Positions 790 through 64,000 of a stretch of DNA of 64,000 nt are shown here, piece by piece. This DNA is from Turnera subulata (taxonomy: Eukaryota > Streptophyta > Magnoliopsida > Malpighiales > Passifloraceae): contig JAKUCV010000253.1 in NCBI GenBank assembly GCA_028386065.3, forward strand, positions 194,656 to 258,655. Direction: 5' to 3'. The position numbers and the translations under genes were made by a program. Every line of letters begins with the position of its first letter. Within the stretch, counting starts at the first letter, position 1. The notes under the pieces were generated by a model. It worked only from the letters and a program-made list of their open reading frames with translations, did not search any database and was not told where the DNA came from.

Positions 790-2460
790 TGTTAGAACAA
801 TAGCCCTTCGCTAGAGGGGGGTGAATAGCGATAATCTAATTAAAACGAAATAGGCAGGAATCAAATGCGGAATTGAAAGATTGAAGAACACAACCAATTT
901 ATCCTGGTTCACACACACTCTACTAGTGTGGCTAATCCAGCCCTTCAAGTCTCACTTGAAAATTTCACTATCTAGTGTTAAGCTTACGGGTGCTTAACAA
1001 ACCGTTACAACCTAGGAATTCTAGTCACAAGAATCCTAAACCTGAGAGTTCAAGTCACATAAACCTCAACACACTTGCTTGAAGATACCTCACTTCAAAA
1101 CTTCTCACATAAGAAGATATACCCTCTTCCTATGAATCTCAACAAGGGAACTAACCTCCCTTAAGGTGTATGAATATACAATTCAATCACTCAAACAAAG
1201 AACTCTCTCAATGAGCAAATATGAGTATACAAGTAAAGCTCTAAAAGGCAACTCTCAAATCCTCAATAGGATATTGGCTCAATAATAATTTTGATGAATG
1301 TATGGAATGAATGCTTGAATGTTGAGAGTTGATTTATCTCCAAAACAGAGCTAAAAATGCTCAATTTATAGCTCTGAAAAGTTATAGAGCCGTTTTAAAT
1401 CCACCCAAAAACAATCTTAAACAAAACATAGTGGGTGCTAAAAAGTTGTCAGCTCAACGGCTAAAACATCGATGTTTAAAGGTAGAACATCGATGTTTTG
1501 CCCATTAAATTTGAATTTTGGGCTAACGGTAACTAAAACATCGATGTTCTCCATCCCAACATCGATGTTATTTTGATTCTGTGAAAATGAGATGAAAACT
1601 GATCTATGAAGAACATCGATGTTTTCATTCCAACATCGATGTTATTTTGCTTCTGTGAAAAATGATTGAAGCTAAGCATTTGAAGAACATCGATGTTATG
1701 GAATAGAACATCGATGTTTTGCTTATGCAAAAGTGTTTTCAAATGCAACGGTCATGAGAACATCGATGTTTGGGATGCCAACATCGATGTTCTTAGCCTT
1801 CTGCCAACATTTGGAAAAATGGTTGAAACCAAGAACATCGATGTTTGGAATGCCAACATCGATGTTATTTGCCTACTGCCGTTTTTGAAAAATTCTTTGA
1901 AGGCAGGAACATCGATGTTTAGAAAACACCATCGATGTTATTTTGGCTCGGCAAAAACAAATTAAAACTGACCATTATGGAACATCGATGTTACAAATGG
2001 GAACATCGATGTTGTGACTAGTTTTAAAAGCAACGGTCACTAGAACATCGATGTTTGGGATGCCAACATCGATGTTCTGAGCCTTCTGCCTGTTTTGAAG
2101 AATTGTGCAAAGGCAGGAACATCGATGTTTAAATCCACAACATCGATGTTCATGGCTCGAAAAACATTTTTATGCTTGGAAGTATGTTATGTTATGCATG
2201 AGCAAAATTCATCTTATTTTGAGCCAATGTCCTAGAAGAGTTGAGTGTTATACCTTGTACAATTTATGGATCTAACTCTTCTTTCTTGGCTCTTCAATTC
2301 TTGTGCTCATTCATTTTGATCCTTTGCTCTTGAATGGTTTCTTGTGCTTGAGGATTGGTTTGACTTCATTTCTTTTTGCTTCTTCTTTGTCATGATCTTG
2401 AATTGGTTTGTCAATTATCAAAACCTGTCATGAATGAACCATGAAGACATAGGTTCTAAC
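790..2460 (-). repeat. 5' LTR of element A
   Basis: Its inner end (790 on the plus strand, TGTTAGAACAATAGCCC) is the complement of the family 3' terminus TATTGTTCTAACA. Its outer end at 2460 matches the family 5' terminus with the first base changed. Length is about 1.67 kb. Most of the promoter-proximal half is an array of AACATCGATGTT palindromes (1465-2150). Confidence 0.85.
1465..2150. repeat. Array of AACATCGATGTT palindromes (element A LTR)
   Basis: About twenty copies of the 12-bp palindrome, mostly in close pairs with 9-10 bases between partners. The sequence between pairs has diverged but often contains CAACGGTCA or its complement. The many short apparent ORFs here (runs of NIDV, TSMF, HRCS) are only this motif read in three frames. 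Confidence 0.95.
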
Positions 2461-2461
2461 T

Positions 2462-3655: not shown

Positions 3656-3765
3656 GTTGTGTTAAGACGTGTGGGTGTTTTGTTTTTCAGAGTTTTGTGG
3701 TTTTGGTTGCCTGAATGTTTTGCTGCTTTTAGATGTTTTGATGATTTACACCTCACCGCTTCGTC

Positions 3766-6055: not shown

Positions 6056-6505
6056 TGTTAGAACTCATGCCTCCTTGTTTCATTTCAGGGTTTTGATAAT
6101 GACAAACCTTGGCTCAATTGATGACAACTTTGAAGCAAAAAGAAATCAAGCAAATATCAAGTACTCAACCCAAGTGATCAAGAATTCAAGTGAAGTTGGT
6201 CAAAGAGTTGAAGTGCAATGAGAGCAAAAGAAGTTAGGAATCTATTTTGTACAAGGTTTTGATATTGACAAACACATTCTATCAAGCAAAAAGAAATCAA
6301 GCAAACAAGTGCTCAACCAAAGTGATCAAGAACTCAAGTGAAGATATGATCAAGAGTTAAAGTGCAAAAAGAGCAAGAGAAGTTAGGACTCCTTTGTACA
6401 AGGTAAAACACTCAACTTCTCCTAGGCATTGGCTCAAAATAAAACAAGTTTTACTCATGCATTTCATAGCATCATTTCAATCACAAAATGTGCTTTCAAA
6501 TAATG

Positions 6506-7633
6506 AACATCGATGTAGTAAGTTTAGACATCGATGTTGCTGCCTTAAAACTTCTTTCAAAACGGGCAGTAAGGTCTGAACATCGATGTTGGCATCCCAA
6601 ACATCGATGTTCTCATGACCGTTGCACTTAAAAATGGTCTGCCCGATCAAAACATCGATGTTGCGATTTGAGACATCGATGTTCTTCATATTGATTTTTA
6701 ATCTTCTTGGCAGTAGCTCCAAAACATCGATGTTGGATTATAAAACATCGATGTTCNGATGAGTTAGGAACTCAAAATGTACAAGGGCAATGTCAAGCAA
6801 AAAGAAGTGAAGTCAAGAACAACTTGCTCAAGAATTGAAGTCAAGAGTTAAAGTGCAAAAAGAGCAAGAGAAGTTAGGACCCCTTTGTACAAGGTAAAAC
6901 ACTCAACTTCTCTTAGGCATTGGCTCAAAATAAAACAAGTTTTACTCATGCATTTCTTAGCATCATTTCAATCACAAAATGTGTTTTCAAATAATGAACA
7001 TCGATGTAGTAAGTTTAGACATCGATGTTGCTGCCTTAAAAGTTCTTCCAAAACGGGCAGTAAGGTCTGAACATCGATGTTGGCATCCCAAACATCGATG
7101 TTCGCATGACCGTTGCACTTAAAAATGGTCTGCCCGATCAAAACATCGATGTTGTGATTTTAAACATCGATGTTCTGTTTTTCCAAGGTTTTACAAAAGT
7201 TGGTAGAAGCGGAAAAACATCGATGTTCCAATGGCAACATCGATGTTCTGATATTTGGTTTCAAAATGAATTTTGCAGTAGCTCTAAAACATTGATGTTG
7301 GACTATAAAACATCGATGTTCTTGTGACCGTTGCTCAAAACATCGATGTTGGGAATTTAAACATCGATGTTGTGATAATTGTCTTCAAGTTGAATTTTGG
7401 CAGTAGCCATAAAACATCGATGTTTGAAACTGAAACATCGATGTTCTTGCATAACTCCTTTTATCATATTTTTGCGAAGCAAGAGAACATCGATGTTGGT
7501 TTAGAGAACATCGATGTTGAAAATGAAAACATCGATGTTCCCCAGACAAACATCGATGTTCTACTAGCTGTTGGAACAATAATTTAAAATTGTTGGCTAA
7601 AACATCGATGTTTGTAGGCAAAACATCGATGTT
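6506..7633. repeat. Array of AACATCGATGTT palindromes (B 5' LTR)
   Basis: More than thirty copies, mostly doublets. The first block appears twice because of the duplication around the N. A cluster at about 7485-7560 runs at close to 21-bp steps, like the quartet at 11690-11764 in the partner LTR. Confidence 0.95.
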
Positions 7634-7729
7634 CTGCCGTTGTAGCAGACAACTTTTTTTAGCACCCACTATGTTTTGTTTAAGGATGTTTTTGGGTGGA
7701 TTTAAAACGGCTCTATAACTTCTCAGAGC

Positions 7730-7737
7730 TATAAATT
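7730..7737 (+). promoter_or_regulatory. LTR TATA box (element B)
   Basis: TATAAATT preceded by AACGGCTCTATAA and followed by a CT-rich stretch (ACTCTCT). The same order of palindromes, AACGGCTCTAT, then TATA is seen before the internal sense ORFs of C and E. Confidence 0.6.
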
Positions 7738-8370
7738 GAGCATTTTTAGCTATGCTTCAAAATTAATCAACTCTCTACTTACATGCATTCATCTCATACA
7801 TTCAAATCAATCTTTGTTGAGCCAATATCCTATTGAGGATTTGAGAGTTGCCTTTTAGAGCTTCACTTGTACACTCATACCTGCTCTTTGAGAGAGTCTT
7901 TTGTTCTGAGTGATTGTGTATTCATACACCTTAAGGGAGGTTAGTTCCCTTGTTTAGATTCACAAGAAGAGGGTATATCTTCTTGTGTGAGAAGTCTTAA
8001 GGTGTGGTATCCTTAAGCAAGTCTAGGATTCTTGAGATTAGAATTCCTAGGAAAGTCTTGAAGTGAGATATCTTCAAGCAAGAGAGCTGAAGTTCATGTG
8101 ACTTGAACTTTCAAGGTTTAGGATTCTTGTGACTAGAATTCCTAGGTTGTAACGGTTTGTTAAGCACCCGTGAGCTTAACGTAGATCGTGAAATCTTCAA
8201 GTGAGACTTGAAGGGCTGGATTAGCCACACTAGTAGAGTATGTGTGAACCAGGATAAATTTCTTGTGTCCTTCATTCTTTCAATTCCGCATTTCATTCCT
8301 GCCTATTTCGTTTTAATTCGATTATCGCTATTCACCCCCCCCTCTAGCGAAGGGCTATTGTTCTAACAAT

Positions 8371-8383: not shown

Positions 8384-8423
8384 TAACTCTCTGAAAAACT
8401 TAACAGTTTGAGAGAAATTTTCT

Positions 8424-10211
8424 ATGGCTTCTTCAAGTAATCATGCAGGAATCTTCGAAGGACATTCAACCGTTCGTCCACCGTACTTTGATGGCACCAA
8501 CTACAGCTACTGGAAGGAGAGGATGAGAATTTTCCTTCAATCCAACAACTATGCTCTTTGGTGGATCATGAAAGTTGGAGAGCAAATTCCAGTGAAGAAA
8601 GTTGGTGAAGTTCAAATGCCAAAGACGGAGGAGGAGTACAACGCTGCTGACATTGTATTGGTGGAAAACAATGCCAAATCAATCAACATGCTCTATTGTG
8701 CTGTCAACCCCGATGATTACCGGAAAATCTCTTGCTGCACTACTGCGAAAGGAATGTGGGATAAGCTGGAGGTCACCTACGAAGGATCCGATCAAGTTCG
8801 AGAGGCCAAAATCGACTCCCTCACTGCAGATTACGAACTCTTTCGTATGAAGGAGAATGAAGGAATTGAGGAGATGTTCGACCGCTTCTCGGAAATCATA
8901 AATGAGCTTCATGCTCTCAAGAAGGTCGACTCCGACAAGGACTTGGTCAGAAAAGTTCTTCGAAGTCTCACTCCTGAATGGCGATCAAAGGCGGATGCCA
9001 TCTACGAAAACATCGGCATCAACAACACAACGATTGATGGACTAAGAGGTAATCTTCTAACTTACGAAACCACTATTCTTAAACCTTCTTCACCCTCTTT
9101 GCAGGAACCTAAGAAGAAGAACATAGCTTTCAAAGCCTATACCTACAAGACGCAAGAGTTCACCGAATCGGATTCTAGCGATGACGATCAAGAACTCGAA
9201 TTTGTCATCGGCAAATTCCGCAAATTCATGAAGAAAGAATTTGAGAAGAAAGGAAAGAAGACATCCGGTCTACCCAAGTGTTATGAATGTGGAGAGGTCG
9301 GGCATATCAAGCCAAAGTGCCCAAAGACAAAGGAAAGGAAGGAGAAGAAGCCCTACAAGAAGCAAAGGGCATACATCTCTTGGGGAGGAGATTCCGGTGA
9401 TGAATCAAGTGATAGTGATGAAGAGGAGATCGCAAACCTCTGCCTCATGGCAAAGGAAGAAGCAGCGGAAGAGGTAAGTGATTCTGAACCTTCCAATCAT
9501 GATGAATTGCAAGATGCTTTTAATGAATTGTATGCTGAATTTGTTAAAGTCTCTAAGATTCATTTAAAGCAAAAGAAACAAATTGCTTCATTAGAAAAGA
9601 ATCTAGAAGAGCTTACTTGTGAAAATGAGAAATTGAAGGAAGAAAATAGGGATCTAGGCATACCCAAAGAATGTTCATCATGCAACTCCTTAAAAGGAGA
9701 ATGTGAGAAATTGTCTAATGAAAATGTTAAGCTTAGAGAAGAAAATAAGTTTTATGGAAAAAGAAGTGCTAACAAACCGGATAACTTAGAATGCACGTCA
9801 TGCAAATCCTTAAAGAAGCAAGTTGAAAATCTTGAGGCGACATTAAAGAAATTTAATACTCCTCAAAAGAACTTGAATTCCCTCTTAGGTAATTTGCAAT
9901 CAACTAAAAATGGAATAGGTTTCATAAATGAACCTAGGAAGAAGAAAGTTGAAACAAATTCAAGGAAACCTAAGATACAACCTAAGGTTCACAAGGTTAG
10001 CAATGTGCATAAACATAGACAGCATAATGATTATTATCAACCTAGATGGATGCACAACCCAAATGTTATATGCCATTATTGTAGTAGAGTAGGACACATT
10101 GCTCCTGCTTGTTTTACTAGGCATAGGGATTGGGCACAAGAAGAAGCTCATTACCACTATGCTCCTAACCACCAAGGACCCAAAAAGATTTGGGTACCAA
10201 AATCCCTTTGA
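8424..10211 (+). CDS. gag: Gag polyprotein, intact (element B)
   Basis: 595 codons without interruption, the only complete gag in the window. The N-terminus MASSSNHAGIFEG then FDGTNYSYWKERMR is the DUF4219-type start; residues of about 60-230 form the UBN2/Retrotran_gag_2 capsid region (AVNPDDYRKISCCTTAKGMWDKL). A CCHC zinc knuckle, CYECGEVGHIKPKC, lies at residues 286-299, followed by an acidic Ser/Asp/Glu stretch. A long coiled coil with CxxC pairs spans about 350-480. A second knuckle, CHYCSRVGHIAPAC, is at 550-563. Two knuckles flanking a coiled coil is the extended SIRE-type gag. With no pol here, its RNA could only be reverse transcribed by another element's enzymes. The start is the first ATG after the PBS and matches all sister copies. 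Confidence 0.92.
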   Translation: MASSSNHAGIFEGHSTVRPPYFDGTNYSYWKERMRIFLQSNNYALWWIMKVGEQIPVKKVGEVQMPKTEEEYNAADIVLVENNAKSINMLYCAVNPDDYRKISCCTTAKGMWDKLEVTYEGSDQVREAKIDSLTADYELFRMKENEGIEEMFDRFSEIINELHALKKVDSDKDLVRKVLRSLTPEWRSKADAIYENIGINNTTIDGLRGNLLTYETTILKPSSPSLQEPKKKNIAFKAYTYKTQEFTESDSSDDDQELEFVIGKFRKFMKKEFEKKGKKTSGLPKCYECGEVGHIKPKCPKTKERKEKKPYKKQRAYISWGGDSGDESSDSDEEEIANLCLMAKEEAAEEVSDSEPSNHDELQDAFNELYAEFVKVSKIHLKQKKQIASLEKNLEELTCENEKLKEENRDLGIPKECSSCNSLKGECEKLSNENVKLREENKFYGKRSANKPDNLECTSCKSLKKQVENLEATLKKFNTPQKNLNSLLGNLQSTKNGIGFINEPRKKKVETNSRKPKIQPKVHKVSNVHKHRQHNDYYQPRWMHNPNVICHYCSRVGHIAPACFTRHRDWAQEEAHYHYAPNHQGPKKIWVPKSL

Positions 10212-10736
10212 TTTGTTTTGCAGGTATGCTTGAAGGCATCAAGTGTACTTTGGTACCTTGATTGCGGATGCCCCAAGCAAATAACCAAAGAAGCATCCAA
10301 GGTCTTAATCAATTCTTGTAGAAATGCAAGGATGAGTGTTGTTTTTGTAGGTACCCCTCATTTAGGCAAAAAGATAGGGGGAACAAAGGGATGATGAAGA
10401 ACTTCAAAATTTGAGCAGAAGTCTCAATACATCGATGTTGAGTATCACAACATCGATGTTCAGCTAAGCTTTCTAACATTCTTTATTTTGGCACATATAG
10501 AAGTGTATAGGTGTAGATAATATGTTGCACTTGTTCAAAGCTCCACCTATTTCTTACATAAGCACTTCTCAACCTCTTCTTATCATTATTTCTTTTTGCT
10601 AATGAAAAAAGGGGGAAGATAAGAAGAAATATATGCACCAAGTTAGGGGGAATCACAATTTGAAATACATAGGGGGAATTATCCTTATGTTAAACTCATA
10701 AAAATTGGCATATACTTCTAGTTGTTTGTCATTATC
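10212..10736 (+). pseudogene. Protease stub and 3' untranslated remnant of element B
   Basis: After gag a short open stretch reads LKASSVLWYLDCGCPKQ, the start of the copia protease, with DCG where DSG is expected. After about 20 more residues it jumps to sequence that in C and D lies next to the accessory region, and ends at a TGA at about 10392. Integrase, RT and RNase H are absent. Two palindromes 21 bp apart (10428 and 10449) and the short run GTAGGTACCCCTCATTTAGG match the start of the accessory region of C. Confidence 0.75.
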
Positions 10737-10750: not shown

Positions 10751-12511
10751 TGTTAGAACTCATGCCTCCTTGTTTCATTTCAGGGTTTTGATAATGACAA
10801 ACCTTGGCTCAATTGATGACAACCTTGAAGCAAAAAGAAATCAAGCAAATATCAAGTACTCAACCCAAGTGATCAAGAATTCAAGTGAAGTTGATCAAAG
10901 AGTTGAAGTGCAATGAGAGCAAGAGAAGTTAGGAATCTATTTTGTACAAGGTTTTGATATTGACAAACACATTCTATCAAGCAAAAAGAAATCAAGCAAA
11001 CAAGTGCTCAACCAAAGTGATCAAGAACTCAAGTGAAGATATGATCAAGAGTTAAAGTGCAAAAAGAGCAAGAGAAGTTAGGACCCTTTTATACAAGGTA
11101 AAACACTCAAATTCTCCTAGGCATTGGCTCAAAATAAAACAAGTTTTACTCATGCATTTCATAGCATCATTTCAATCACAAAATGTGTTTTCAAATAATG
11201 AACATCGATGTAGTAAGTTTAGACATCGATGTTGCTGCCTTAAAACTTCTTCCAAAACGGGCAGTAAGGTCTGAACATCGATGTTGGCATCCCAAACATC
11301 GATGTTCTCATGACCGTTGCACTTAAAAATGGTCTGCCCGATCAAAACATCGATGTTGCGATTTGAGACATCGATGTTCTTCATATTGATTTTTAATCTT
11401 TTTGGCAGTAGCTCCAAAACATCGATGTTGGATTATAAAACATCGATGTTCTTGTGACCGTTGGTCAAAACATCGATGTTGTCATTTCAACATCGATGTT
11501 GTGATTTCTTCAAGGTTTTCCAAAATTTGGCAGAAGCGGAAAAACATCGATGTTCTATTGGAAACATCGATGTTCTGATAATTGATTTCAAAATGAATTT
11601 TGCCGAAGCCAAAAAACATCGATGTTTCATTTTCCAACATCGATGTTCATGCATAAACCCTTTTTCATCATATTTTTGCGAAGCTCAAAAACATCGATGT
11701 TGAATTGGAGAACATCGATGTTGAGTATGAAAACATCGATGTTCTCAAATGCAACATCGATGTTCTACTAGCCGTTGGAGCAATAATTTAAAATTGCTGG
11801 CTAAAACATCGATGTTTAAAGTGAAAACATCGATGTTTTGCCGTTGTAGCAGACAACTTTTCAGCACCCACTATGTTTTGTTTAAGGCTGTTTTTGGGTG
11901 GATTTAAAACGGCTCTATAACTTTTCAAAGCTATAAATTGAGCATTTTTAGCTGTGTTTCAAAACTAATCAACTCTCTACTTACATGCATTCATCTCATA
12001 CATTCAAATCAATCTTTGTTGAGCCAATATCCTATTGAGGATTTGAGAGTTGCCTTTTAGAGCTTCATTTGTACACTCACATCTGCTCTTTGAGAGAGAC
12101 CTCTTGTTTGAGTGATTATTGTGTTGTTATACACCTTGAGGGAGGTTAGTTCCCTTGGTTAGATTCATAAGAAGAGGGGTATATCTTCTTGTGTGAGAAG
12201 TCTTGAAGTGAGGTATCTTCAAGCAAGAGAGCTGAAGTTCATGTGACTTGAACTTTCAGGGTTTAGGATTCTTGTGACTAGAATTCCTAGGTTGTAACGG
12301 TTTGTTAAGCACCCGTAAGCTTAACGTAGATAGTGAAATCTTCAAGTGAGACTTGAAGGGCTGGATTAGCCACACTAGTAGAGTGTGTGTGAACCAGGAT
12401 AAATTTCTTGTGTCCTTCATTCTTTCAATTCCGCATTTCATTCCTGCCTATTTCGTTTTAATTCGATTATCGCTATTCACCCCCCTCTAGCGAAGGGCTA
12501 TTGTTCTAACA
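10751..12511 (+). repeat. 3' LTR of element B
   Basis: TGTTAGAACTCATG to TATTGTTCTAACA, 1761 bp. It carries the best-resolved palindrome array (11201-11837). Downstream are AACGGCTCTATAA, a TATA box (CTATAAATTGAG) and the R/U5 part shared by the family. Confidence 0.9.
11201..11837. repeat. Helically phased AACATCGATGTT array (B 3' LTR)
   Basis: Start positions counted by hand: 11201, 11222, 11274, 11295, 11346, 11367, 11418, 11439, 11469, 11489, 11543, 11563, 11615, 11636, 11690, 11711, 11732, 11753, 11805, 11826. Steps within doublets are 20 or 21; steps between doublets are 51-54, with one of 30. Four sites from 11690 are spaced exactly 21 bp. Confidence 0.95.
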
Positions 12512-13220
12512 CTCATAACCGTTGGTCCAATAATTCAAGTTTACTGGCCAAACATCGATGTTCTATGTTTAAACATCGATGTTGTGCCGTTTTGAGCAGA
12601 CACCTCTTTTAGCATTCCATATTATCTTGTCTAACGGTGTTTTGGATTGATTCCACAACGGTCATACATATTTTGGGACATATAAATAGAGGATTTACAT
12701 CTCTGTTTAAAATCAATTAACTCTCTACATTTTAAGCATTCATTGTCATACATACATTGCAATTTTTATGAGCCAATATCCTTGAGGATTGGGAGTTACC
12801 TTTATAGAGCTTATTTGTTACTCATATCCACTCTTTGAGAGAGCTTTTGTTTGAGTGATTTTAAGTGTTGTTATTCACCTTAAGGAAGGATTGTTCTGTT
12901 GTACAACTCATAGGAAGAGTGTCTTCTTTCCTTAAGAGAAGTCTTGAAGTGAGGTATCTTCAAGCAAGTAAGTAGAGTTTCGTGTGACTCGAGCTCTAGG
13001 TTTGTATACGGTTTGTTAAGCACCCGGAAGCTTAACCTAGATAGTGAAATCTTCGAGAGAGTCTTTCGGAGGACTGGATTAGCCACACAAGTTGTGTGTG
13101 TGAGCCAGTATAAATTTTGGTGTGTCCTTATTCTTTCAATTCCGCATTTATTTCCTGCATGTTTTTGAATTTGTCTGAAAAACGCTATTCACCCCCTAGT
13201 GTAGGGCACTTGTTCTAACA
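12512..13220 (+). repeat. 5' LTR of element C, 3' portion
   Basis: Starts at the insertion point of B (CTCATAACCGTTGG) and is collinear with 20659-21372 of the partner LTR. Keeps two palindromes, the TATA region (ATATAAATAGAGG) and the end CTTGTTCTAACA. Confidence 0.88.
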
Positions 13221-16216: not shown

Positions 16217-16306
16217 TTTTGTCTTGTTGTGGTTTGTGTATCTCTCTTTCTCTGAATCGTATTTTTCTTAAAATGCTTTTGATTATTTACTAACCATTGC
16301 TTTGCC

Positions 16307-17608: not shown

Positions 17609-18127
17609 AACATCGATGTTGCTTAACAAAACATCGTTGTTTGGCCAATACACACCTGGACCCGAGGCTGTCAAACATCGATGTTGAGGATCAAACATTG
17701 AGTAGACTTCAGCTCGTACCATTCCCAACCTGCAGCTTCAAACATCGATGTCTAAAAGCCTAACATCAATGTTGTCTCATGTGCACAATCAAGTCATTAA
17801 CCGGCATGTTTAAACATTGATGTTCGGTCCCGAAACATCGATGTTTAGTAAGTATTTTTCTTCCCAGTAGTTTTAAACATCGATGCTTCCAGGTAAGACA
17901 TCGATGTTCTGTCATTACAGATTAAAATTTTTCATCCAGTAGTTTTAAACATAGATGTTCTCATATTACAACATCGATGCTGTTTCGATTGGCAGCATAT
18001 CAGATTCTGTCCAGAGGCTCGACAACATTAATGTTGAACATCTGAACATCGATGTTTAGCCCTTTTTTTTTAAAAAATAGCCGTTGGGGAGTCAAACATT
18101 GATGTCGTCAGACTGAACATCGATGTT
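17609..18127. repeat. Internal AACATCGATGTT array upstream of sense accessory ORF (C)
   Basis: About fifteen intact or decayed copies (ACATTGATGTT, ACATCGTTGTT and others), with less regular spacing than in the LTRs. It ends about 75 bp before the TATA box of the accessory ORF. Confidence 0.88.
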
Positions 18128-18202: not shown

Positions 18203-18210
18203 TATATAAA
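18203..18210 (+). promoter_or_regulatory. Internal TATA box for the sense accessory ORF (C)
   Basis: CCCTATATAAATG preceded by CTCTATTTTGGGCTCC, 92-99 bp before the ATG. The equivalent in E is at 61112-61119. Confidence 0.65.
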
Positions 18211-18301: not shown

Positions 18302-19588
18302 ATGTCAGGTGGGAAGAAATCCTCCAAGGGCAAATCTCCTGCTAAGGAGAGACCATTAAAGCAAAGAGGAGGCTCTTCAAGCTCAGCTCCTCAATTTACA
18401 GTGGAAGGCACCTCAATTTGGTTCTCTACCAGAGCCGAAGTCCATAACTTCTTGACTCTCTTCTCCAAGCACTCAATTGCGTCTCCACGGTATCTTCCGG
18501 TGGATTACCCGAAGGAGAAGAATTACACGCAGCTTGAAGCCAATCTTCGAGCATCGGGATTGTGGGAATTCGTGACCAACAGGGGCTGGCAATATAGTGC
18601 TGAATTCGTCCGAGCATTCTACTCAACTCTCCGACGAGATGGTGACACATTGTTCGCTAATGTCAATGGAGTGTACATTACCATGACATTGGAGGATTTC
18701 GGGGCGCTTGCTAGCTTGCCTTTTCAGGGAGATGATATTGCATCCTACGGAGGTGATCAATAGCTCACGGTCCATGAAGCACCTTTTTTGCCTGAGCTTG
18801 GCTTCACCACTATTGTCCTTCACAAATCTGGGAGGCCAACCATTCATTCCATTAAACCGGAGTACCGAGTCCTGTTCTACCTTCTCACCCGGGTCATCAA
18901 GCCGAGAGACAAAAATCACACCGTCTTATCCGTTGAAGATGTGAAAGTACTTCATGCCATCCTCCACCATGCACCAATCAATTGGGCACGATTTGTGCTC
19001 ATGCACATGTCGAAATATGCATCCGCATACACTGACCATCCATTGCCCTATCCATTCTTGGTCTTGGATATTTTATTGAATGCAGGTATTGATGCTCGGA
19101 AAGGCGCACAGGTTCCTCACACCAACATATGGGCGATAAGTGATGCTACTTTCCGCTCCGAAAAATCTGTGGAAGAACAAAGGACCGACCAAACTTCCGA
19201 GCAAGCTCCAGGGACTGCCCAAGCAGAAAGTTCCCGTACAGCCCCTTCTCGACGCCGAACCTCCAGAGTCACCCTTGAGTCCATTACTGACTCCCTCCAT
19301 GGCCTTCAATTAAGCATGACAAGAATGGGACAAGCAATAGAGAGGATTGACACGAAAGTTCAATGACAAGGCCACTCTCTTCAGTCTTACTTTGCCTGTG
19401 TGAATTACAATCCTCCACCATATCACACCATACTTCATGGATACAATTTTGAAGATGAAGGTGATAATGATGATGAGGACTTCACTCCAATGGATGTTGA
19501 GGATGGTGAAGAAGGAGCAGATGAAGATGAAGAGGAAGAAGACCTTCCAGCCGAAACCGATGATGATGATGACAATGATGGGAACTAA
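18302..19588 (+). pseudogene. Sense accessory ORF in the env position, two stops (C)
   Basis: 428 codons, broken by TAG at 18761 (Trp in E) and TGA at 19364 (Arg in E). Residues 1-25 are Lys/Ser/Gly-rich (GGKKSSKGKSPAKER). Residues of about 35-265 are globular, with FVRAFYSTLRRDGD and LPFQGDDI, resembling the 'putative plant transposon protein' family (PF20167) found near plant retroelements. Residues 300-350 are Ser/Arg-rich, then helical (LHGLQLSMTRMGQAIERID). The last 50 are almost entirely Asp/Glu. No signal peptide or membrane segment is visible, so an envelope role is not supported despite the position between pol and the 3' LTR. The basic head and acidic tail resemble chromatin-associated proteins. 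Confidence 0.7.
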
Positions 19589-19935: not shown

Positions 19936-21372
19936 TGTTAGAACTCATGCCTCCTTGTCTTATTTCAGGGTTTTGAAATTGACAAACCAAGCATGACTCA
20001 ATTGATGACAACCTTGAAGCAAAAAGAAATCAATCAAAGAGCAAAGGTCTAAAGAGAAAACAACACAAGAATTGAAGTAACAAGCAAGAAGATTTAGGAA
20101 CACAAAATGTACAAGGGTAAAACACTCAATTCCTCTAAGACATTGGCTCAAAACAAAATCAATTTTACACACGCATCAAATAGCATTCTTTCAAACACAA
20201 AAATGATTTTTGAGTATTGAACATCGATGTTCAAGTTTCCAACATCGATGTTCCTGCCTTCAAACAATTTTCAAAAACAGGCAGTAGCTCAGAACATTGA
20301 TGTTGGCATCCCAAACATCGATGTTCTTGTGACCGTTGTACTTAGAATCTTTTGCAGCATCAAAACATCGATGTTCCACTTTAAGACATCGATGTTCCTT
20401 CAATTGGTTTTCTTTTGAATTTTGGCAGAGCCTCAGAACATCGATGTTCAAATTGCAAACATCGATGTTCCATCATCAAACATCGATGTTCCACCTTCGG
20501 ACATCGATGTTCTCATGAAGATCATTTTTTACAAGTTTTGGCAGTGTTTCAAAACATCGATGCTCCCATGGCAAACATCGATGTTCTAGTGACCGTTGGA
20601 CTTAATAATTCCTATTTACTGGCAAAACATCAATGTTCCCTTGGTAAACATTGATGTTCTCATAACCGTTGGTCCAATAATTCAAGTTTACTGGCCAAAC
20701 ATCGATGTTCTAAGTTTAAACATCGATGTTGTGCCGTTTTGAGCAGACACCTCTTTTAGCATTCCATGTTATCTTGTCTAAAGGTGTTTTGGATTGATTC
20801 CACAACGGTCATACATGTTTTGGGACATATAAATAGAGGATTTACATCTCTGTTTAAAATCAATTAACTCTCTACATTTTAAGCATTCATTGTCATACAT
20901 ACATTGCAATTTTTATGCGCCAATATCCTTGAGGATTGAGAGTTATCTTTATAAAGATTATTTGTTACTCATATCCACTCTTTGAGAGAGCTTTTGTTTG
21001 AGTGATTTTAAGTGTTGTTATTCACCTTAAGGGAGGATTGTTCTGTTGTACAACTCATAGGAAGAGTGTCTTCTTTCCTTAAGAGAAGTCTTGAAGTGAG
21101 GTATCTTCAAGCAAGTAAGTAGAGTTTCGTGTGACTCGAGCTCTAGGTTTGTATACGGCTTGTTAAGCACCCAGAAGCTTAACCTAGAAAGTGAAATCTT
21201 CGAGAGAGTCTTTCGGAGGACTGGATTAGCCACACAAGCTGTGTGTGTGAACCAGTATAAATTTTTGGTGTGTCCTTATTCTTTCAATTCCACATTTATT
21301 TCCTGCAAGTTTTTGAATTTGTCCGAAAAATGCTATTCACCCCCCCTCTAGCGTGGGGCACTTGTTCTAACA
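19936..21372 (+). repeat. 3' LTR of element C
   Basis: TGTTAGAACTCATG to CTTGTTCTAACA, 1437 bp. Palindromes fill 20220-20730. A TATA box (ACATATAAATAGAGG) lies near 20825-20840. This LTR preserves the empty site where B was inserted in the partner LTR. Confidence 0.9.
20220..20730. repeat. Array of AACATCGATGTT palindromes (C 3' LTR)
   Basis: About eighteen copies in doublets, a few decayed by CG-to-CA or TG changes (ACATTGATGTT, ACATCAATGTT), as expected from methyl-cytosine deamination at the central CpG. Confidence 0.93.
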
Positions 21373-33768: not shown

Positions 33769-35454
33769 TGTTGGAACTAATGCCTCCTTGCTTCTTATAG
33801 GTTTTGATATTGACAAACTAAAGGCAAAAAGAAATGAATTGAAATGAAGGCAAATCAATCCTCAAGTCAAAGAAACCAAATCAAGAGCAAAGTATCAAAG
33901 TGAATTAGCACAAGAATTGAAGAGCCAAGAAAGAAGAGTTAGATTCATAAATTGTACAAGGTATAACACTCAACTCTTCTAGGACATTGGCTCAAAATAA
34001 GATGAATTTTGCTCAAGCATCACATAACATATTTCCAAGCATAAAAATATTTTTCGAGGAATGAACATCGATGTTGTGGATTTAAACATCGATGTTCCTG
34101 CCTTTGCACAATTCTTCAAAAATTGGCAGTAGGCAAATAACATCGAAGTTTAATCCATAACATCGATGTTATAATGACCGTTGCTTTTAAAATTAGTCAT
34201 AACATCGATGTTCCCATTTGTAACATCGATGTTCTTTCAAGTTGACTTTAAAATCGTTTTTGCCGAGCCAAAATAACATCGATGTTGGCATCCCAAACAT
34301 CGATGTTCTTGGTTTCAACCATTTTTCCAAAAGTTGGCAGTAGCTCCAAAACATCGATGTTTACATCTAAACATCGATGTTCCTGCCTTCAAAAAATTTT
34401 CCAAAAATTGGCAGAAGGCTCAGAACATCGATGTTGGCTTCCTAAACATCGATGTTCTTATGACCGTTGCATTTCAAAATATTTCTTACATGAGCAAAAC
34501 ATCGATGTTGGATTTAGAACATCGATGTTCTTCAAATTGAGTCTTTTAACTCTTGTTCACAGAAGCAAAATAACATCGATGTTCTGAATTAAAACATCGA
34601 TGTTCTTCAATGATCAGTTTTCATCTCTTTTTCACAGAAGCAAAATAACATCGATGTTGGTTTTCAAACATCGATGTTCTTCATATGAAGCTTTAAAGGA
34701 TTTTACACAGAATCAAAATAACATCGATGTTGGGTTTGATAACATCGATGTTGAGCCTTAAAACATCGATGTTATGGCCGTTATTTCTGACAACTTTTCA
34801 TTACCCACTATGTCTTGTTTAAAGATGTTTTCTTGAGTGGATCCTAAATGGCTATACATGTTTTCAGAGCTATAAATTATTCATTTACAGCTCTGATTAC
34901 TAATCAATCAACTCTTAAGATTCAAGCATTCATTTCACACATCAAAATCAATTTTTATTGAGCCAATATCCTATTGAGGATTTGAGAGTTGCCTTTTAGA
35001 GCTTAAATTCTATATCTCATATCTACTCTTTGAGAGAGTTCTTTGTTTGAGTGATTGAATTGTGTATTCATACACCTTAAGGGAGGTTAGTTCCCTTGTT
35101 GAGATTCATAGGAAGAGGGTATATCTTCTTGTGTGAGAAGTCTTGAAGTGAGGTATCTTCAAGCAAGAGTGTTGAGGTTCATGTGACTTGAACTCTTAGG
35201 TTTAGGATTCTTGTGATTAGAATTCCTAGGTTGTAAACGGTTTGTTAAGCACCCGTAAGCTTAATGTAGATAGTGGAATCTTCAAGAGAGTCTCTTGAAG
35301 GACTGGATTAGCCACACAAGTAGTGTGTGTGTGAACCAGGATAAATTGATTGTGTCCTTCAATCTTTTTAATTCTGCATTTATTTCATGCTTATTTCGTT
35401 TTAATCCGATAAACGCTATTCACCCCCCTCTAGCGTAAGTCTATTGTTCTAACA
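33769..35454 (+). repeat. 5' LTR of element D
   Basis: TGTTGGAACTAATGCC to TATTGTTCTAACA, 1686 bp. TATA box TATAAATT at 34871-34878. Palindromes 34064-34773. It lacks one palindrome-bounded unit of about 50 bp present in the partner LTR at about 40341-40391. Confidence 0.92.
34064..34773. repeat. Helically phased AACATCGATGTT array (D 5' LTR)
   Basis: Start positions counted by hand: 34064, 34085, 34139 (one base changed), 34159, 34201, 34222, 34275, 34296, 34350, 34370, 34424, 34445, 34498, 34518, 34572, 34593, 34647, 34667, 34720, 34741, 34762. Within doublets 20-21 bp; between doublets 53-54 bp, with one of 42. The doublets therefore recur every 73-75 bp. Confidence 0.95.
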
Positions 35455-36873: not shown

Positions 36874-37663
36874 ATTGTCTTGCAGGTATGCTTGAAGGCA
36901 TCAAGTGTACTTTGGTACCTTGATTGCGGATGCTCCAAGAAAATGACAAAAGAAGCATCCAAGTTCTAAAATGTGGAACCACCTGTTCGATTTTGGTAGA
37001 AATGCAAGGTTGAGTGATAGTGCAAAACCGGACCAGAAGATGACAACATCGATGTTTAATAAGCAACATCGATGTACCATATTTTTCAGCTCACTTGTGT
37101 TTTTCAACCAGTAGCTGAAAAACATCGATGTTGTATCGCCAACATCGATTTTCCAACGAGAGCACCGAGCCACAAATCGAGCATGCACATCGATTTTTTG
37201 TATCAAACATCGATGTTCGGTGAGAACTTTATTTTCCAGTAGTCGTTAAACATCGATGTTCATTTTCTACACATCGATGTTATTCATTCCAAGCTATTTA
37301 AAATTTCTGTCTAGTAGTCAAAAACATCGATATCACATTCTTGAACATCGATGTTCTGCCTTTGTTGCATTTTCACAACTTAGAAATAAGTTAACTTTCT
37401 CACTTAAGTTAAGAAATTTAGGTAGCATGTTCATGACTAAATGTTTCAGGAATAATATTCAGATTTCTTTCAATTTAAGCTAAGCATGTAGTTAGTGTAC
37501 AATTGATCAAATTAAGAAACACTAGCTTGTTTGATGAACACTCACATGGAAGAATTTTATGTCATACACATGCTGAAAACATAAATACTTTTATTGATTA
37601 TAAAGATTGAGTACAACTGCTGGAACTTAAAACACACTTATTACAATTATCATAATCCAGCTC
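36874..37663. other. Protease stub and internal palindromes of element D
   Basis: 36885-37020 is the protease start with the family deletion (GAAATGCAAGGTTGAGTG). Palindromes occupy 37045-37355, first pair 20 bp apart, some decayed. 37360-37663 is AT-rich; no gene seen. Confidence 0.7.
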
Positions 37664-39356: not shown

Positions 39357-41089
39357 TGTTGGAACTAATGCCTCCTTGCTTCTTATAGGTTTTGATATTG
39401 ACAAACTAAAGGCAAAAAGAAATGAATTGAAATGAAGGCAAATCAATCCTCAAGTCATAGAAACCAAATCAAGAGCAAAGGATCAAAGTGAATTAGCACA
39501 AGAATTGAAGAGCCAAGAAAGAAGAGTTAGATTCATAAATTGTACAAGGTATAACACTCAACTCTTCTAGGACATTGGCTCAAAATAAGATGAATTTTGC
39601 TCATGCATCACATAACATATTTCCAAGCATAAAAATATTTTTCGAGGAATGAACATCGATGTTGTGGATTTAAACATCGATGTTCCTGCCTTTGCACAAT
39701 TCTTCAAAAATTGGCAGTAGGCAAATAACATCGAAGTTTAATCCATAACATCGATGTTATAATGACCGTTGCTTTTAAAATTAGTCATAACATCGATGTT
39801 CCCATTTGTAACATCGATGTTCTTTCAAGTTGACTTTAAAATCGTTTTTGCCGAGCCAAAATAACATCGATGTTGGCATCCCAAACATCGATGTTCTTGG
39901 TTTCAACCATTTTTCCAAAAGTTGGCAGTAGCTCCAAAACATCGATGTTTACATCTAAACATCGATGTTCCTGCCTTCAAAAAATTTTCCAAAAATTGGC
40001 AGAAGGCTCAGAACATCGATGTTGGCTTCCTAAACATCGATGTTCTTATGACCGTTGCATTTCAAAATATTTCTTACATGAGCAAAACATCGATGTTGGA
40101 TTTAGAACATCGATGTTCTTCAAATTGAGTCTTTTAACTCTTGTTCACAGAAGCAAAATAACATCGATGTTGTGAATTAAAACATCGATGTTCTTCAATG
40201 ATCAGTTTTCATCTCTTTTTCACAGAAGCAAAATAACATCGATGTTGGTTTTCAAACATCGATGTTCTTCATATGAAGCTTTAAAGGATTTTACACAGAA
40301 TCAAAATAACATCGATGTTGGGTTTGATAACATCGATGTTTTAGTTACCGTTAGTCCAATAATTCAAATTTACTGGACAAAACATCGATGTTGAGCCTTA
40401 AAACATCGATGTTATGGCCATTATTTCTGACAACTTTTCATTACCCACTATGTCTTGTTTAAAGATGTTTTCTTGAGTGGATCCTAAATGGCTATACATG
40501 TTTTCAGAGCTATAAATTATTCATTTACAGCTCTGATTACTAATCAATCAACTCTTAGCATTCAAGCATTCATTTCACACATCAAAATCAATTTTTATTG
40601 AGCCAATATCCTATTGAGGATTTGAGAGTTTCCTTTTAGAGCTTAAATTCTGTAACTCATATCTACTCTTTGAGAGAGTTCTTTGTTTGAGTGATTGAAT
40701 TGTGTATTCATACACCTTAAGGGAGGTTAGTTCCCTTGTTGAGATTCATAGGAAGAGGGTATATCTTCTTGTGTGAGAAGTCTTGAAGTGAGGTATCTTC
40801 AAGCAAGAGTGTTGAGGTTCATGTGACTTGAACTCTCAGGTTTAGGATTCTTGTGATTAGAATTCCTAGGTTATAAACGGTTTGTTAAGCACCCGTAAGC
40901 TTAACGTAAATAGTGGAATCTTCAAGAGAGTCTCTTGAAGGACTGGATTAGCCACACAAGTAGTGTGTGTGTGAACCAGGATAAATTGATTGTGTCCTTC
41001 AATCTCTTTAATTCCGCATTTATTTCCTGCTTATTTCGTTTTAATCCGATAAACGCTATTCACCCCCCCTCTAGCGTAGGTCTATTGTT
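39357..41089 (+). repeat. 3' LTR of element D, last bases lost
   Basis: TGTTGGAACTAATGCC, near-identical to 33769-35454, ending TCTATTGTT without the final CTAACA. Palindromes 39652-40413 include one extra unit relative to the partner. Confidence 0.92.
39652..40413. repeat. Array of AACATCGATGTT palindromes (D 3' LTR)
   Basis: Same sites and spacing as 34064-34773, plus an inserted unit at about 40341-40391 containing ACCGTTAGTCC and bounded by palindromes. Confidence 0.95.
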
Positions 41090-53275: not shown

Positions 53276-54623
53276 TGTTAGAAGTCATGTCTCCTTATCT
53301 CATTTTAGGGTTTTGACATTGACAAACAAAGCATGACTCAACTGATGACAAACAACCTTGAAGCAAAAAGAAATCAATCAAAGAACAAAGGTCCCAAGAG
53401 AAAAAAGCACAAGAATTGAAGTAACAAGCAAGATGGGTTAGGAACACAAAATGTACAAGGGTAAAACACTCAATTCTTCTAAAGACATTGGCTCAAAACA
53501 AAATCAATTTTACACATGCATCAAATAGCATTCTATCAAACACAAAAATGATTTTTGAGTATTGAACATCGATGTTCATGTTTTAGAACATCGATGTTCC
53601 TGCCTAACAATGTTCCGGAAAACAGGCAGTAGCATAGAACATCGATGTTGGCTTACCAAACATCGATGTTCTTGTGACCGTTGCACCTAAAACTCTTTGC
53701 AGCACCAGAACATCGATGTTCCAATTCAATACATCGATGTTCCCTCAACTTGTTCTCCTTAGAACTTCGGCAGATGCTCAAAACATCGATGTCCGAATGG
53801 AAAACATCGATGTTCCAACAAAGAACATCGATGTTCATCATTCCGACATCGATGTTCACATGATGCTCATTTTTAATCGGTTTTGGCAGTGTTTAAAAAC
53901 ATCGATGTTCCCATGGCAAACATCGATGTTTTAGTGACCGTTGGCTTCAATAATTCAAATCCAACAGAAAAACATCGATGTTGTGATACCCAACATCGAT
54001 GTTGTGCCGTTAGAATCAAAAATCCTTTTCCACCTTGCATGTTATCTTGTCTAAAGTTGTTCAGAACTTGTTCCCAACGTCTATATAAGTTTTTGAAGCT
54101 ATAAATAGAGGCATTAAACCCCTCTTTCATTGAGATCAACTCTCTACATTTTAAGCATTCATAGTTATACATTCATACACATTTTTATGAGCCAATATTC
54201 TTGAGAATTGAGAGTTGCCTTTATAGAGCTTTACTTGTTACTCATATTCACTCTTTGAGAGAGCTTTTGTTTGAGTGTTTTTTAAAGTGTTGTTCATACA
54301 CCTTAAGGGAGGATTGTTCCCTTGTAGCATCTCATAGGAAGAGTGTTGAAGTGAGGTATCTTCAAGCAAGTAGAGTTTCATGTGAGTCGGGCTCTAGGAT
54401 TGTATACGGTTTGTTAAGCACCCGAAAGCTTAACCTAGATAGTGAAATCTTCGAGAGAGTCTCTCGGAGGACTGGATTAGCCACACAAGTTGTGTGTGTG
54501 AACCATTATAAAATTCGTTGTATCCTTCTTTCTTTGAATTCCGCAATTATATTCTTGCAAATTTTTGATTTTGTCCATAAAACGCTATTCACCCCCCTCT
54601 AGCGTAGGGCACCTATTCTAACA
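53276..54623 (+). repeat. 5' LTR of element E
   Basis: TGTTAGAAGTCATG to CCTATTCTAACA, 1348 bp. Palindromes 53565-54003. Two TATA-like motifs follow (CTATATAAG at 54081, CTATAAATAGAGG at 54099). Confidence 0.92.
53565..54003. repeat. Array of AACATCGATGTT palindromes (E 5' LTR)
   Basis: About fourteen copies in doublets. The last doublet (53971 and 53992) is 21 bp apart; the partner LTR has four such sites here. Confidence 0.95.
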
Positions 54624-60809: not shown

Positions 60810-61025
60810 AACATCGATGTTGCTCAACTGAACATCGATGTTCTAATGTACAAACCTGGACCCGAGGCCGTCGATGTTGCGACCTTGGTTTTCAAAAAAT
60901 ATAGCCGTTAGGGAATCAAACATCAATGTCTTCAACCAGAACATCGATGTTTGACCATTAAAATTTCAAAAATATAGCCATTGGCGAGCCTCAACATCGA
61001 TGTTCCTCTGTCCAGACATCGATGT
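60810..61025. repeat. Internal AACATCGATGTT array upstream of accessory ORF (E)
   Basis: First pair at 60810 and 60831 (21 bp apart), then decayed and intact copies to 61014-61025. Phrases AGCCGTTAG, AGCCGTTAAC and AGCCGTTGG lie between them. Confidence 0.9.
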
Positions 61026-61111
61026 TTACCGGTTGTGATTCAAAAAAATTAGCCGTTAACTAGTCGTTGGAGCCTGTTGCAAGGACTACAACGGCTCTAT
61101 TTTTGCTCCCC

Positions 61112-61119
61112 TATATAAG
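61112..61119 (+). promoter_or_regulatory. Internal TATA box for the sense accessory ORF (E)
   Basis: CCCTATATAAGTG preceded by ACAACGGCTCTATTTTTGC, 94-101 bp before the ATG. AACGGCTCTAT also precedes the LTR TATA boxes in B. Confidence 0.68.
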
Positions 61120-61212: not shown

Positions 61213-62517
61213 ATGACAGGTGGAAAGAAAAGTTCCAAAGGCAAATCTCCCGCTAAGGAGAGAACATCCAAGCCAAGAGGATGCTCCTTCAGCTCAGCCC
61301 CTCGCTATGCCGTGGAAGGCACCTCCATTTGGTTCCCTTCCAGGGCACCCCTTCACAACTTCATGACTCACTTCTCCAAGCGGCTCATTGCAACCCCTTG
61401 TTATCTTCTGACAATTTATCCCGCCATGAAGAATTACACACAGCTGGAGCCCCTTCTTCAAGCATCGGGATTATGGGGGTTCGTGACCCACAGTCAGCTT
61501 CAATTCAGTGGCGACTTTGTACGAGCTTTTTACTCCACCCTCCGCCGAGATGGTGATAACCTGTCTGCTCATGTAAATAGAGTCTCCATCCACATGACGT
61601 TGCAAGAATTTGGCACAGTTGCTACCTTGCCCTTTCTGGGGGACGATATTGTATCATACGGAGGTGATCATTGGGCCACCATCCATGAACCACCCTTCCT
61701 GAATGAGCTTGGCTTCACGACCCTTGTTCGTCACAGTTCCGGGCGGCCAACCATTCAGACAATCAACCCGGAGTACCGACTTCTGTTCTACCATCTCACC
61801 CGGGTCATCAAGCCAAGAGACGACAATCACACAATTATATCCGTTGAAGATATGAAAGTGCTTCATGCCATTCTTTACTACGCCCTAATTAATTGGGCAT
61901 GATTTGTGCTTATGCACATGTCGGACTATCCGTCCACCTTTCCTGACCATCCCTTACCATATGCCTTCCTAGTCGTGAGCATTTTGTTAAATGCAGGTGT
62001 CAATGCTCGCGTCGGTGCACAGGTTCCTCACTCAAAACTTTGGACAATCGGTGATGCCACATTTCACAGCAGAAAATCTGTGGCAGAACCAAGGACCGAA
62101 CAACCTTCCGAGCAAGCTCCAAGCACTGCTCAAGCAAAAAGCTCCCGTGTTGCCGCTTCTCGACGCGGATCCTCCGGAGTCACTCTTGAATCCATTGCTG
62201 ATTCCATCCATGGTCTTCAATTAAGCATGAAAAGCATGAGCCAAGCAATAGAGAGGATTGACACGGAAGTCCAACGACAAGGCCACTCTCTTCGGTCTTA
62301 CTTTGCCCGTGTGAACTACAATCCTCCACCGTATCACACCACACTTCATGGCTACAACTTTGACGATGAAGGTGATGATGATGATGATGAGGACTACACT
62401 GAAACTATGGACGAAGATCCAATGGAAGTGGAGGATGGTCAAGAAGGAGATGATGGTGAAGAAGGAACAGCTGAAGAAGACGAAGATGATGATGGGAGCG
62501 AAAGCCCAACTTTCTAA
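61213..62517 (+). pseudogene. Sense accessory ORF in the env position, one stop (E)
   Basis: 434 codons with a single TGA at 61900 (Arg in C). Same layout as the copy in C: Lys/Ser/Gly-rich head (GGKKSSKGKSPAKER), globular region with FVRAFYSTLRRDGD, LPFLGDDIVSYGGDHW, HLTRVIKPRDDNH and ILLNAGVNAR, a Ser/Arg-rich linker, a helix LHGLQLSMKSMSQAIERID, and a strongly acidic tail. Resembles PF20167 'putative plant transposon protein'. No membrane segment or signal peptide. The first ATG after the internal TATA box is taken as start and agrees in both copies. Function unknown. Confidence 0.72.
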
Positions 62518-62746: not shown

Positions 62747-64000
62747 TGTTAGAACTCATGTCTCCTTATCTCATTTCAGGGTTTTGATATTGACAAACAA
62801 AGCATGACTCAATTGATGACAAACAACCTTGATGCAAAAAGAAATCAATCAAAGAACAAAGGTCCCAAGAGAAAAGAGCACAAGAATTGAAGTAACAAGC
62901 AAGATGGGTTAGGAACACAAAATGTACAAGGGTGAAACACTCAATTCTTCTAAAGACATTGGCTCAAAACAAAATTAATTTTACACATGCATCAAATAGC
63001 ATTCTATCAAACACAAAAATGATTTTTGAGTGTTGAACATCGATGTTCCTGCCTAACAATGTTCCAGAAAACAGGCAGTAGCCTAGAACATCGATGTTGG
63101 CTTCCCAAACATCGATGTTCATGTGACTGTTGCACCTAAAACTCTTTGCAGCACCAGAACATCAATGTTCCAATTTAAGACATCGATGTTCCCTCAATTT
63201 GTTCTCTTTTGAACTTCGGCAGATGCTCAAAACATCGATGTCTGAATGGCAAACATCGATGTTCCAACAAAGATCATCGATGTTCATCATTCCGACATCG
63301 ATGTTCACATGATGCTCATTTTTAATCGGTTTTGGCAGTGTTTCAAAACAATGATGTTCCCATGGCAAACATCGATGTTTTAGTGACCGTTGGCTTCAAT
63401 AATTCAAATCCAACAGACAAACATCGATGTTGTGATACCCAACATCGATGTTGTGATACCCAACATCGATGTTGTGATACCCAACATCGATGTTGTGCCG
63501 TTAGAATCAAAAATCCTTTTCCACCTTGCATGTTATCTTGTCTAAAGGTGTTCAGAACTTGTTTCCAACGTCCATATAAGTTTTTGAATCTACAAATAGA
63601 GGCATTAAACCTCTCTTTCTGGGAGATCAACTCTCTACATTTTAGGCATTCATAGTTATACATTCATACACATTTTTATAAGCCAATATTCTTGAGAATT
63701 GAGAGTTGCCTTTATAGAGCTTTACTTGTTACTCATATTCACTCTTTGAGAGAGCTTTTGTTTGAGTGTTTTTTAAAGTGTTGTTCATACACCTTAAGGG
63801 AGGATTGTTCCCTTGTAGCATCTCATAGGAAGAGTGTTGAAGTGAGGTATCTTCAACCAAGTAGAGTTTCGTGTGAGTCAGGCTCTAGGAATGTATATGG
63901 TTTGTTAAGCACCCGAAAGCTTAACCTAGATAGTGAAATCTTCGAGAGAGTCTCTCGGAGGACTGGATTAGCCACACAAGTTGTGTGTGTGAACCAGTAT
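62747..64000 (+). repeat. 3' LTR of element E, cut by the window edge
   Basis: Collinear with 53276-54623. Palindromes 63038-63494. Differs from its partner in palindrome-unit number at two places: one unit fewer near the start, two more near the end (63420-63494). Confidence 0.92.
63038..63494. repeat. Array of AACATCGATGTT palindromes (E 3' LTR)
   Basis: Ends in four identical sites at 63420, 63441, 63462 and 63483, exactly 21 bp apart and joined by the same 9-base spacer GTGATACCC. Confidence 0.95.

Follow-up and report, generated by a model that had tools for sequence, protein, structure and literature searches.

The window, a 64-kb stretch of Turnera subulata DNA, contains five Sirevirus-like elements (E1 to E5), whose LTRs were delimited by self-comparison of the window. 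As an earlier note on this DNA had proposed, all five carry a 12-bp palindrome, AACATCGATGTT, in their LTRs. The window holds 146 exact copies of it, compared to 0.01 expected (100 shuffles, largest 1), and it is the most frequent 12-mer present; the runner-up palindromic 12-mer has 4 copies. The exact copies fall into 13 clusters, with 131 copies within LTRs and 15 in element interiors, and a further 39 sites depart from the palindrome by one mismatch and 6 by two. The LTRs and their arrays, together with one internal remnant, are:

6056-8368 (+), E1 5′ LTR; array 6506..7633, 28 sites (at most one mismatch), with an internal 491-bp duplication
10428..10460 (+), internal remnant doublet of the deleted element E1
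10751-12511 (+), E1 3′ LTR; array 11201..11837, 20 sites (17 exact, 3 with one mismatch)
12512-13220 (+), E2 5′ LTR, truncated; final doublet 12551..12583, 2 sites
19936-21372 (+), E2 3′ LTR; array 20220..20730, 16 sites (at most one mismatch)
33769-35454 (+), E3 5′ LTR; array 34064..34773, 21 sites (20 exact, 1 with one mismatch)
39357-41089 (+), E3 3′ LTR, a few terminal LTR bases absent; array 39652..40413, 22 sites (at most one mismatch)
53276-54623 (+), E4 5′ LTR; array 53565..54003, 14 sites (at most one mismatch)
62747-64000 (+), E4 3′ LTR, cut off beyond its array where the window ends; array 63036..63494, 14 sites (at most one mismatch)
about 790-2464 (-), E5 LTR (790-2460 in computations); array 1465..2150, 20 sites (at most one mismatch)

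Eight of the nine LTRs have an array with an intact start, which holds 14-28 sites and begins 285-451 bp into the LTR; the truncated E2 5′ LTR retains its 2 sites. In the seven LTRs that are neither cut nor truncated the array ends at about 54-68% of LTR length, slightly beyond the middle. The estimate of about 20 sites per LTR in the earlier note suits E1 3′, E3 and E5, but is too high for E2 (16) and E4 (14 and 14). Part of the E1 5′ array is covered by a tandem duplication with an offset of 491 bp (6350-6760 and 6841-7252). The E1 3′ LTR ends exactly where the truncated E2 5′ LTR starts (12511/12512), and no matching 5 bp were seen by eye in the E1 flanks.

The elements encode Copia-type proteins, with gag (PF14223) and zf-CCHC domains in 8412-10211 and RVT_2 in 57534-58502 and 58503-59033, in different elements. 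Pol_BBD and GAG-pre-integrase domains are also present in open pieces of the elements. A search allowing 3 mismatches placed the CA/ATTGG junction at five positions (8367, 13219, 35453 and 54622 on the forward strand and 776 on the reverse), where it is followed by the PBS TAGCGGAGC (three), TAGCGGGGC (one) or TAGCAAAGC (one). The Sirevirus 9-bp PBS, TATCAGAGC, has 0 copies in the window, and the priming tRNA may differ from the Sirevirus one. The Sirevirus PPT octamer, AGGGGGAG, occurs at none of the LTR junctions and at 3 other places in the window. The 3′ LTR junctions of E2, E3 and E4 have AGGGGGAA followed by AT/TG, that of E1 has the variant AGGGGAAA, and 3-5 further AGGGGGA or AGGGGAA copies lie upstream of each E1-E4 PPT. 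The same G to A change in the octamer is reported for Tnd-1 and ToRTL1 in PMC2829016 (Bousios 2010). All 7 of the LTR 3′ ends inspected, those of E1, E2 and E3 and of the E4 5′ LTR, have the C-rich integrase signal, CTATTCACCCCC.., close by. The elements thus appear Sirevirus-like, a label based on their match to the description in Bousios 2010 with two departures, a PPT ending in A and a PBS that is never the Sirevirus 9-mer.

Protein searches returned relatives in Cuscuta. For gag, 116 of the best 120 of 458 matches were from Cuscuta campestris, with 50-72% identity over part of the query, and the only match to an env-like piece was from C. campestris (41% identity). Among the matches listed for a reverse transcriptase piece Cuscuta was not singled out: the top ones were unnamed or came from other plants, and one was from C. 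epithymum (53%).

The sites are arranged in doublets. Across five representative LTRs (E1 3′, E2 3′, E3 3′, E4 5′ and E5) we counted 87 site spacings, of which 49 are 20-22 bp and 35 are 50-54 bp; 42 bp occurs twice and 30 bp once. The doublet pattern described in the earlier note is therefore borne out (84 of 87 spacings), here with 20-22 bp inside doublets, 50-54 bp between them and a period of ~72-75 bp, and Tandem Repeats Finder reports units of 72-75 bp and 20-21 bp. Both spacing classes probably derive from a single ancestral unit. The array of the E4 3′ LTR ends in a perfect 21-bp run of 3.7 copies (63420-63497), which has 2 units more than the matching place in the E4 5′ LTR and so indicates recent growth by single 21-bp units.

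Neighbouring LTR sites lie near whole helical turns, with a mean cosine of 0.88 at 10.5 bp that only 0.08% of random shifts of both spacing classes reach. The mean coherence of whole arrays at 10.5 bp is 0.61, reached by 1.0% of random shifts. The helical register claimed earlier is thus seen between neighbouring sites, but no single period fits the arrays as a whole: the best-fitting period is 10.40 bp in E1 3′, E2 3′ and both E4 LTRs, 10.45 bp in E1 5′ and 10.55-10.60 bp in E5 and E3, and coherence at a fixed 10.5 bp ranges from 0.25 to 0.80 over 8 LTR arrays. Long spacings have a mean cosine of 0.77 (n = 38) in LTRs compared to 0.30 (n = 13) in the arrays inside elements. Long spacers do not clearly keep their length better than the flanking LTR does, since 73% of long-spacer pairs agree within 2 bp compared to 49-94% of flanking windows, the flanks being less diverged. 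We regard the register as a real local property. Inheritance of a ~73-bp tandem unit accounts for it equally well, and a functional role, or selection on spacing, is a candidate only.

The motif is conserved far more strongly than its surroundings, in evidence drawn from the five elements of this one window. In all 10 between-element comparisons of LTR pairs, motif divergence (0.8-8.0%) was about 5 to 26 times lower than that of array spacers (20.8-44.1%), while the LTR outside the array diverged by 12.1-28.0%. As pairwise alignments are drawn toward the motifs, which favours motif conservation, we also compared units inside each LTR. Here motif-motif identity was 0.94-0.99, while identity was 0.51-0.58 for long spacers (0.46-0.50 shuffled) and 0.41-0.49 for short spacers (0.33-0.42 shuffled). 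That the palindromes stay near-identical while the spacers diverge, as first noted from the letters alone, is thus seen both between elements and between units of one LTR. Over 123 sites, the information content of the 12 motif positions ranged from 1.25 to 2.40 bits, while none of the 32 flanking positions scored exceeded 0.67. Where the motif has changed, position 1, position 12 or the central CpG is usually affected. Outside the motif, CpG observed/expected in the LTRs is 0.29-0.43, yet only 6 of the 123 sites have an altered central C and 4 an altered central G; these sites were picked with at most two mismatches, so that decayed ones are missed.

Selection on the site and recurrent conversion had both been offered as causes of this conservation. 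The data favour selection on the individual site and speak against conversion between units of one array, because the spacers of such units are only slightly more alike than shuffled ones. After insertion the motif has not changed significantly more slowly than the rest: between sister LTRs of E2, E3 and E4, 4 of 384 motif positions have changed compared to 79 of 3217 elsewhere (p = 0.10). E1 was excluded from this test. Its LTRs differ at 53 of 430 spacer positions, 36 of 1120 outside the array and 0 of 204 in the motif, but rearrangement of the E1 5′ array makes the comparison inside the array unreliable.

The arrays stand in a near-fixed relation to a TATA box. The final palindrome lies 94-97 bp upstream of TATAAAT in 8 of 9 LTRs, and the ninth LTR has TACAAAT. 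In the E1 3′ LTR the order is:

11769..11779 (-), YCYAACGGYYA match in a spacer
11932..11938 (+), TATAAAT, 94 bp past the last motif

Both E2 LTRs have a second TATAAAT 525 bp past the array. The spacers also hold a second box. In 13 of the 37 long spacers (at least 25 bp, five LTRs) CCGTT follows the palindrome at exactly 7 bp, compared to 0.5 expected and a maximum of 4 in 400 simulations, the 13 spacers not being independent since units share ancestry. The remaining 24 have a GGCAG-like box and none has both, a clean split into two classes that is partly by construction, since the GGCAG-like class was defined by eye after looking; this does not apply to the CCGTT offset. The CCGTT box looks like a MYB-type site. 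YCYAACGGYYA is the MSA-type MYB consensus, and the window has 5 exact matches to it compared to 0.07 expected (30 simulations), 2 of them in LTRs and 3 in or just after the arrays beside env-like ORFs. Besides the match in the E1 3′ LTR, these are at:

20590, 18078, 18151 and 60902, YCYAACGGYYA matches

In Arabidopsis, and probably also in tobacco, MYB3R factors bind MSA-like AACGG/CCGTT boxes that lie close to start sites (PMC10905365). A link of the arrays to the cell cycle is possible; a search for literature tying LTR retrotransposons to MSA elements and MYB3R found none.

Smaller arrays, absent from the earlier note, lie inside elements, and two of them are directly upstream of an env-like ORF:

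17609..18127 (+), E2 env-side array, 15 sites (at most two mismatches), 5 exact
18203..18209 (+), E2 TATATAA, 75 bp past the last env-side motif
18302..19366 (+), E2 env-like ORF region, two pieces with an in-frame stop between them, analysed separately
37045..37355 (+), E3 internal array, 10 sites (at most two mismatches)
60810..61026 (+), E4 env-side array, 6 sites (at most two mismatches), 4 exact
61112..61118 (+), E4 TATATAA, 85 bp past the last env-side motif
61213..62517 (+), E4 env-like ORF region, two pieces with an in-frame stop between them

The env-like ORF starts with an ATG at 18302 in E2, where further ATGs occur at 18210 and 18213, and with an ATG at 61213 in E4 (read from the sequence), where another occurs at 61122. 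An array and TATATAA thus precede the env-like ATG, about 100 bp from the box, in E2 and E4, the only elements where an env-like ORF was found. Just downstream of the E3 internal array no TATA or env-like ORF was seen by eye. The only Pfam match of the env-like pieces (E up to 0.01) is the uncharacterised PF20167, which scored 34.8 bits against the second E2 piece, under its curated cut-off of 45; no DNA-binding domain was found in them. The LTR and env-side putative promoters share their layout. The env-side array with its TATATAA is a candidate for the internal env promoter that was sought inconclusively in 2010: PMC2829016 argues for such a promoter, which its authors could not conclusively identify.

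Arrays of this kind have known relatives. Bousios 2010 described high-copy palindromic "repeated motifs" (RM) in Sirevirus LTRs, upstream of TATA and of the env-like gene (PMC2829016, in part). The arrays here resemble them in being high-copy LTR palindromes before TATA with extra clusters before the env-like gene, and in having a near-identical motif, richer in CpG than its surroundings, amid diverged flanks. Among the features that define an RM, the window shows a palindrome that is present in 8 or more copies and lies for the most part in the upper LTR half, a place shortly before TATA and extra env-side copies. In contrast, 12 of the 13 RMs in Table 3 of that paper have a CGG-CCG core, where the motif here has ATCGAT; Tnd-1, a tobacco Sirevirus, is the same exception. 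Its RM, ACAATCGATTGT, is likewise a 12-bp palindrome centred on ATCGAT, and its PPT octamer also ends in A. Tnd-1 differs in its outer bases (ACA..TGT compared to AAC..GTT here) and in its fewer copies (8), and is listed without env and with no TATA motif reported in the part of PMC2829016 consulted. A text search of the available part of the same paper found no statement on doublets or helical spacing, and ACAATCGATTGT was not found in literature beyond it. The palindromes in the LTRs of maize Opie and Ji (Bousios 2016, via excerpts of PMC5311732 and PMC10760457) also form foldable clusters in the cis-regulatory part of Sirevirus LTRs, but their motif is another one. A search by DNA pattern for relatives of the motif array in viral contigs gave 0 matches. 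The RM-box kind is therefore already known, and the window appears to hold an unusual version of it in this motif, its spacing pattern and the twin array beside a second gene. In a literature mostly without subscription papers, we found neither the doublet unit nor the near-fixed distance to TATA described, and likewise nothing on the offset of CCGTT or on an env-side TATA layout that matches the LTR one.

What would such arrays do? From the pattern of conservation and the promoter layout, we consider it rather probable that the palindromes form a cis-regulatory array to which a homodimeric factor binds, driving the LTR and env promoters. Each array would offer many sites to this factor, which would bind DNA sequence-specifically and would most simply be a transcription factor of the host. 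These sites would act from U3, immediately ahead of the core promoter of the LTR, with the TATA boxes marking putative start sites and with a second copy before the putative internal env-like promoter of two elements. Selection among replicating elements would maintain each site (core ACATCGATGT) while the intervening DNA drifts. The array would have expanded as a doublet unit of ~73 bp was duplicated in tandem, which keeps the spacing near whole helical turns, and this spacing may aid joint action of neighbouring dimers. In part of the units the CCGTT box may serve as a partner site for a MYB-type factor. By title or abstract start, none of the literature matches listed named a plant factor that reads the 12-mer or its core strings.

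Other readings of the arrays can be weighed against the same data. If two ~73-bp units made up one nucleosome core, with the sites on one face of the DNA, the array could be a nucleosome or DNA-shape element, as the neighbour spacings (0.0008 in the null) and the coherence (0.010) might suggest; we think this very unlikely, as the best period varies by lineage, coherence at 10.5 bp falls as low as 0.25, the internal arrays are out of step, and the exact 12-bp sequence is conserved far more than shape would require. That the array is merely a tandem repeat in the LTR, a neutral minisatellite homogenised by slippage and conversion, would agree with the Tandem Repeats Finder units, the perfect 21-bp run in E4 3′ and the E3 LTRs, whose whole arrays are nearly identical (1 of 470 spacer positions different, compared to 17 of 970 outside the array). 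The two E3 LTRs may thus have exchanged array sequence, or the array is otherwise slow to change. A neutral repeat is nevertheless highly improbable, because within an LTR the units have the motif in common but scarcely their spacers, and conversion tracts are not expected to end at 12 bp. The palindromes might instead work as nucleic-acid hairpins, with neighbours pairing into 12-bp stems in the 3′ LTR transcript for small-RNA silencing or RNA dimerisation. Array RNA is indeed far more structured than shuffled sequence (z = -17.0, compared to -0.5 for an adjacent LTR stretch; 20 shuffles each), and in maize the parts of Sirevirus LTRs that are rich in palindromes are hotspots of small RNAs (PMC5311732, PMC10760457). 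Yet such pairing is unavoidable when any palindrome is repeated, and a hairpin would tolerate paired changes, of which there is little sign. Among 84 LTR doublets (sister LTRs included, so not independent; a site in a run of three may enter two doublets), 62 are intact and 22 changed, with 1 compensated and 27 uncompensated changed positions, and 0 of 27 changed LTR sites are still palindromic; as a caveat, RNA with the most frequent variant, A1 to G, would still pair there through a U-G wobble. One altered site in the E2 env-side array, AACATTAATGTT, is still palindromic. This covariation, which also sets the arrays apart from the small-RNA hotspots of Opie and Ji, led us to reject the hairpin as the selected unit while confirming the strong folding itself. 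A hairpin role is unlikely, and site-by-site recognition fits better than pairing.

A factor that reads each site need not come from the host. VANDAL elements are DNA transposons, and in Arabidopsis their VANC proteins offer a model in which an array docks a product of the element itself, countering silencing or auto-activating. Here that product would be the env-like protein or that of an antisense ORF, which lies between pol and env in E2 and E4:

3137-3661 (-), antisense ORF, fragment
15635-16267 (-), antisense ORF in E2
about 37665-38352, antisense ORF, broken copy in E3
59487-60194 (-), antisense ORF in E4

Copies of this ORF share 70-79% amino-acid identity, with third-position changes in excess. 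Their dN is 0.13-0.18 (three pairs) compared to a dS of 1.4 and 1.7 (two pairs, the third not computable), which indicates that the ORF is a conserved gene under purifying selection. The C-terminal half of its product, judged by eye, is similar to the beginning of a LINE-type endonuclease (WNCRG..LTET). Retand Gypsy elements are known to carry antisense ORFs in the stretch from pol to the 3′ LTR (PMC11963269). That the array adjoins the env-like gene besides its LTR position would suit an element-encoded reader, as would the VANC targets, which in the accessible part of PMC5735166 are likewise dense short motifs in tandem repeats of non-coding transposon DNA, with gain and loss of repeats. In contrast, the VANC21 motif is non-palindromic and in one orientation, where AACATCGATGTT is palindromic, and its reader is known. 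Pfam found no domain in the antisense ORF, so that neither product has a recognised DNA-binding domain. A solved-structure search with the antisense ORF gave one match (E = 0.59), taken as chance, and structure models of this ORF and an env-like piece were too poor to read (mean pLDDT 35.8 and 39.1). Decay of CpGs after insertion also bears on this reading, with 2 of 49 in the motif compared to 15 of 67 other CpGs over four LTR pairs (p = 0.007), but the difference weakens to p = 0.010 without E1 and p = 0.29 without E1 and E3, and we do not claim methylation protection of motif CpGs. We hold an element-encoded reader to be unlikely. Its fullest form, in which the arrays are docking platforms for the element's own protein, perhaps the antisense or env-like product, which switches on the LTR and env promoters and keeps motif CpGs unmethylated, seems quite unlikely; it would make the elements a VANC-like self-activation system in a Copia retrotransposon, with Sirevirus RM boxes as address tags.

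A binding array for a homodimeric, probably host, factor would bear on RM boxes more widely. These were described in 2010 without a reader or proven role, and the literature consulted since, in the parts accessible, names no reader. The window is a very clean case, with one fixed 12-mer, a near-fixed TATA distance, a spacer pattern in which a further box keeps a constant offset, and much the same layout on the env side. Two questions become testable with it: the identity of the protein that recognises the boxes, and the presence of a separate promoter for the env-like gene. The case also calls for caution, in that neither helical phasing nor a hairpin function should be read from spacing alone.

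The window contains two other kinds of tandem repeat. Arrays of 13-bp units (CCTATAGTCTCAA / GTCTCAACCTTTA) lie outside E1-E5, at 47842-48035 and 49941-50323, and a 31-bp minisatellite with related CCGCCACC..GGCGGACA units occurs in four places (25700-25797, 45093-45164, 47365-47453 and 48690-48759).
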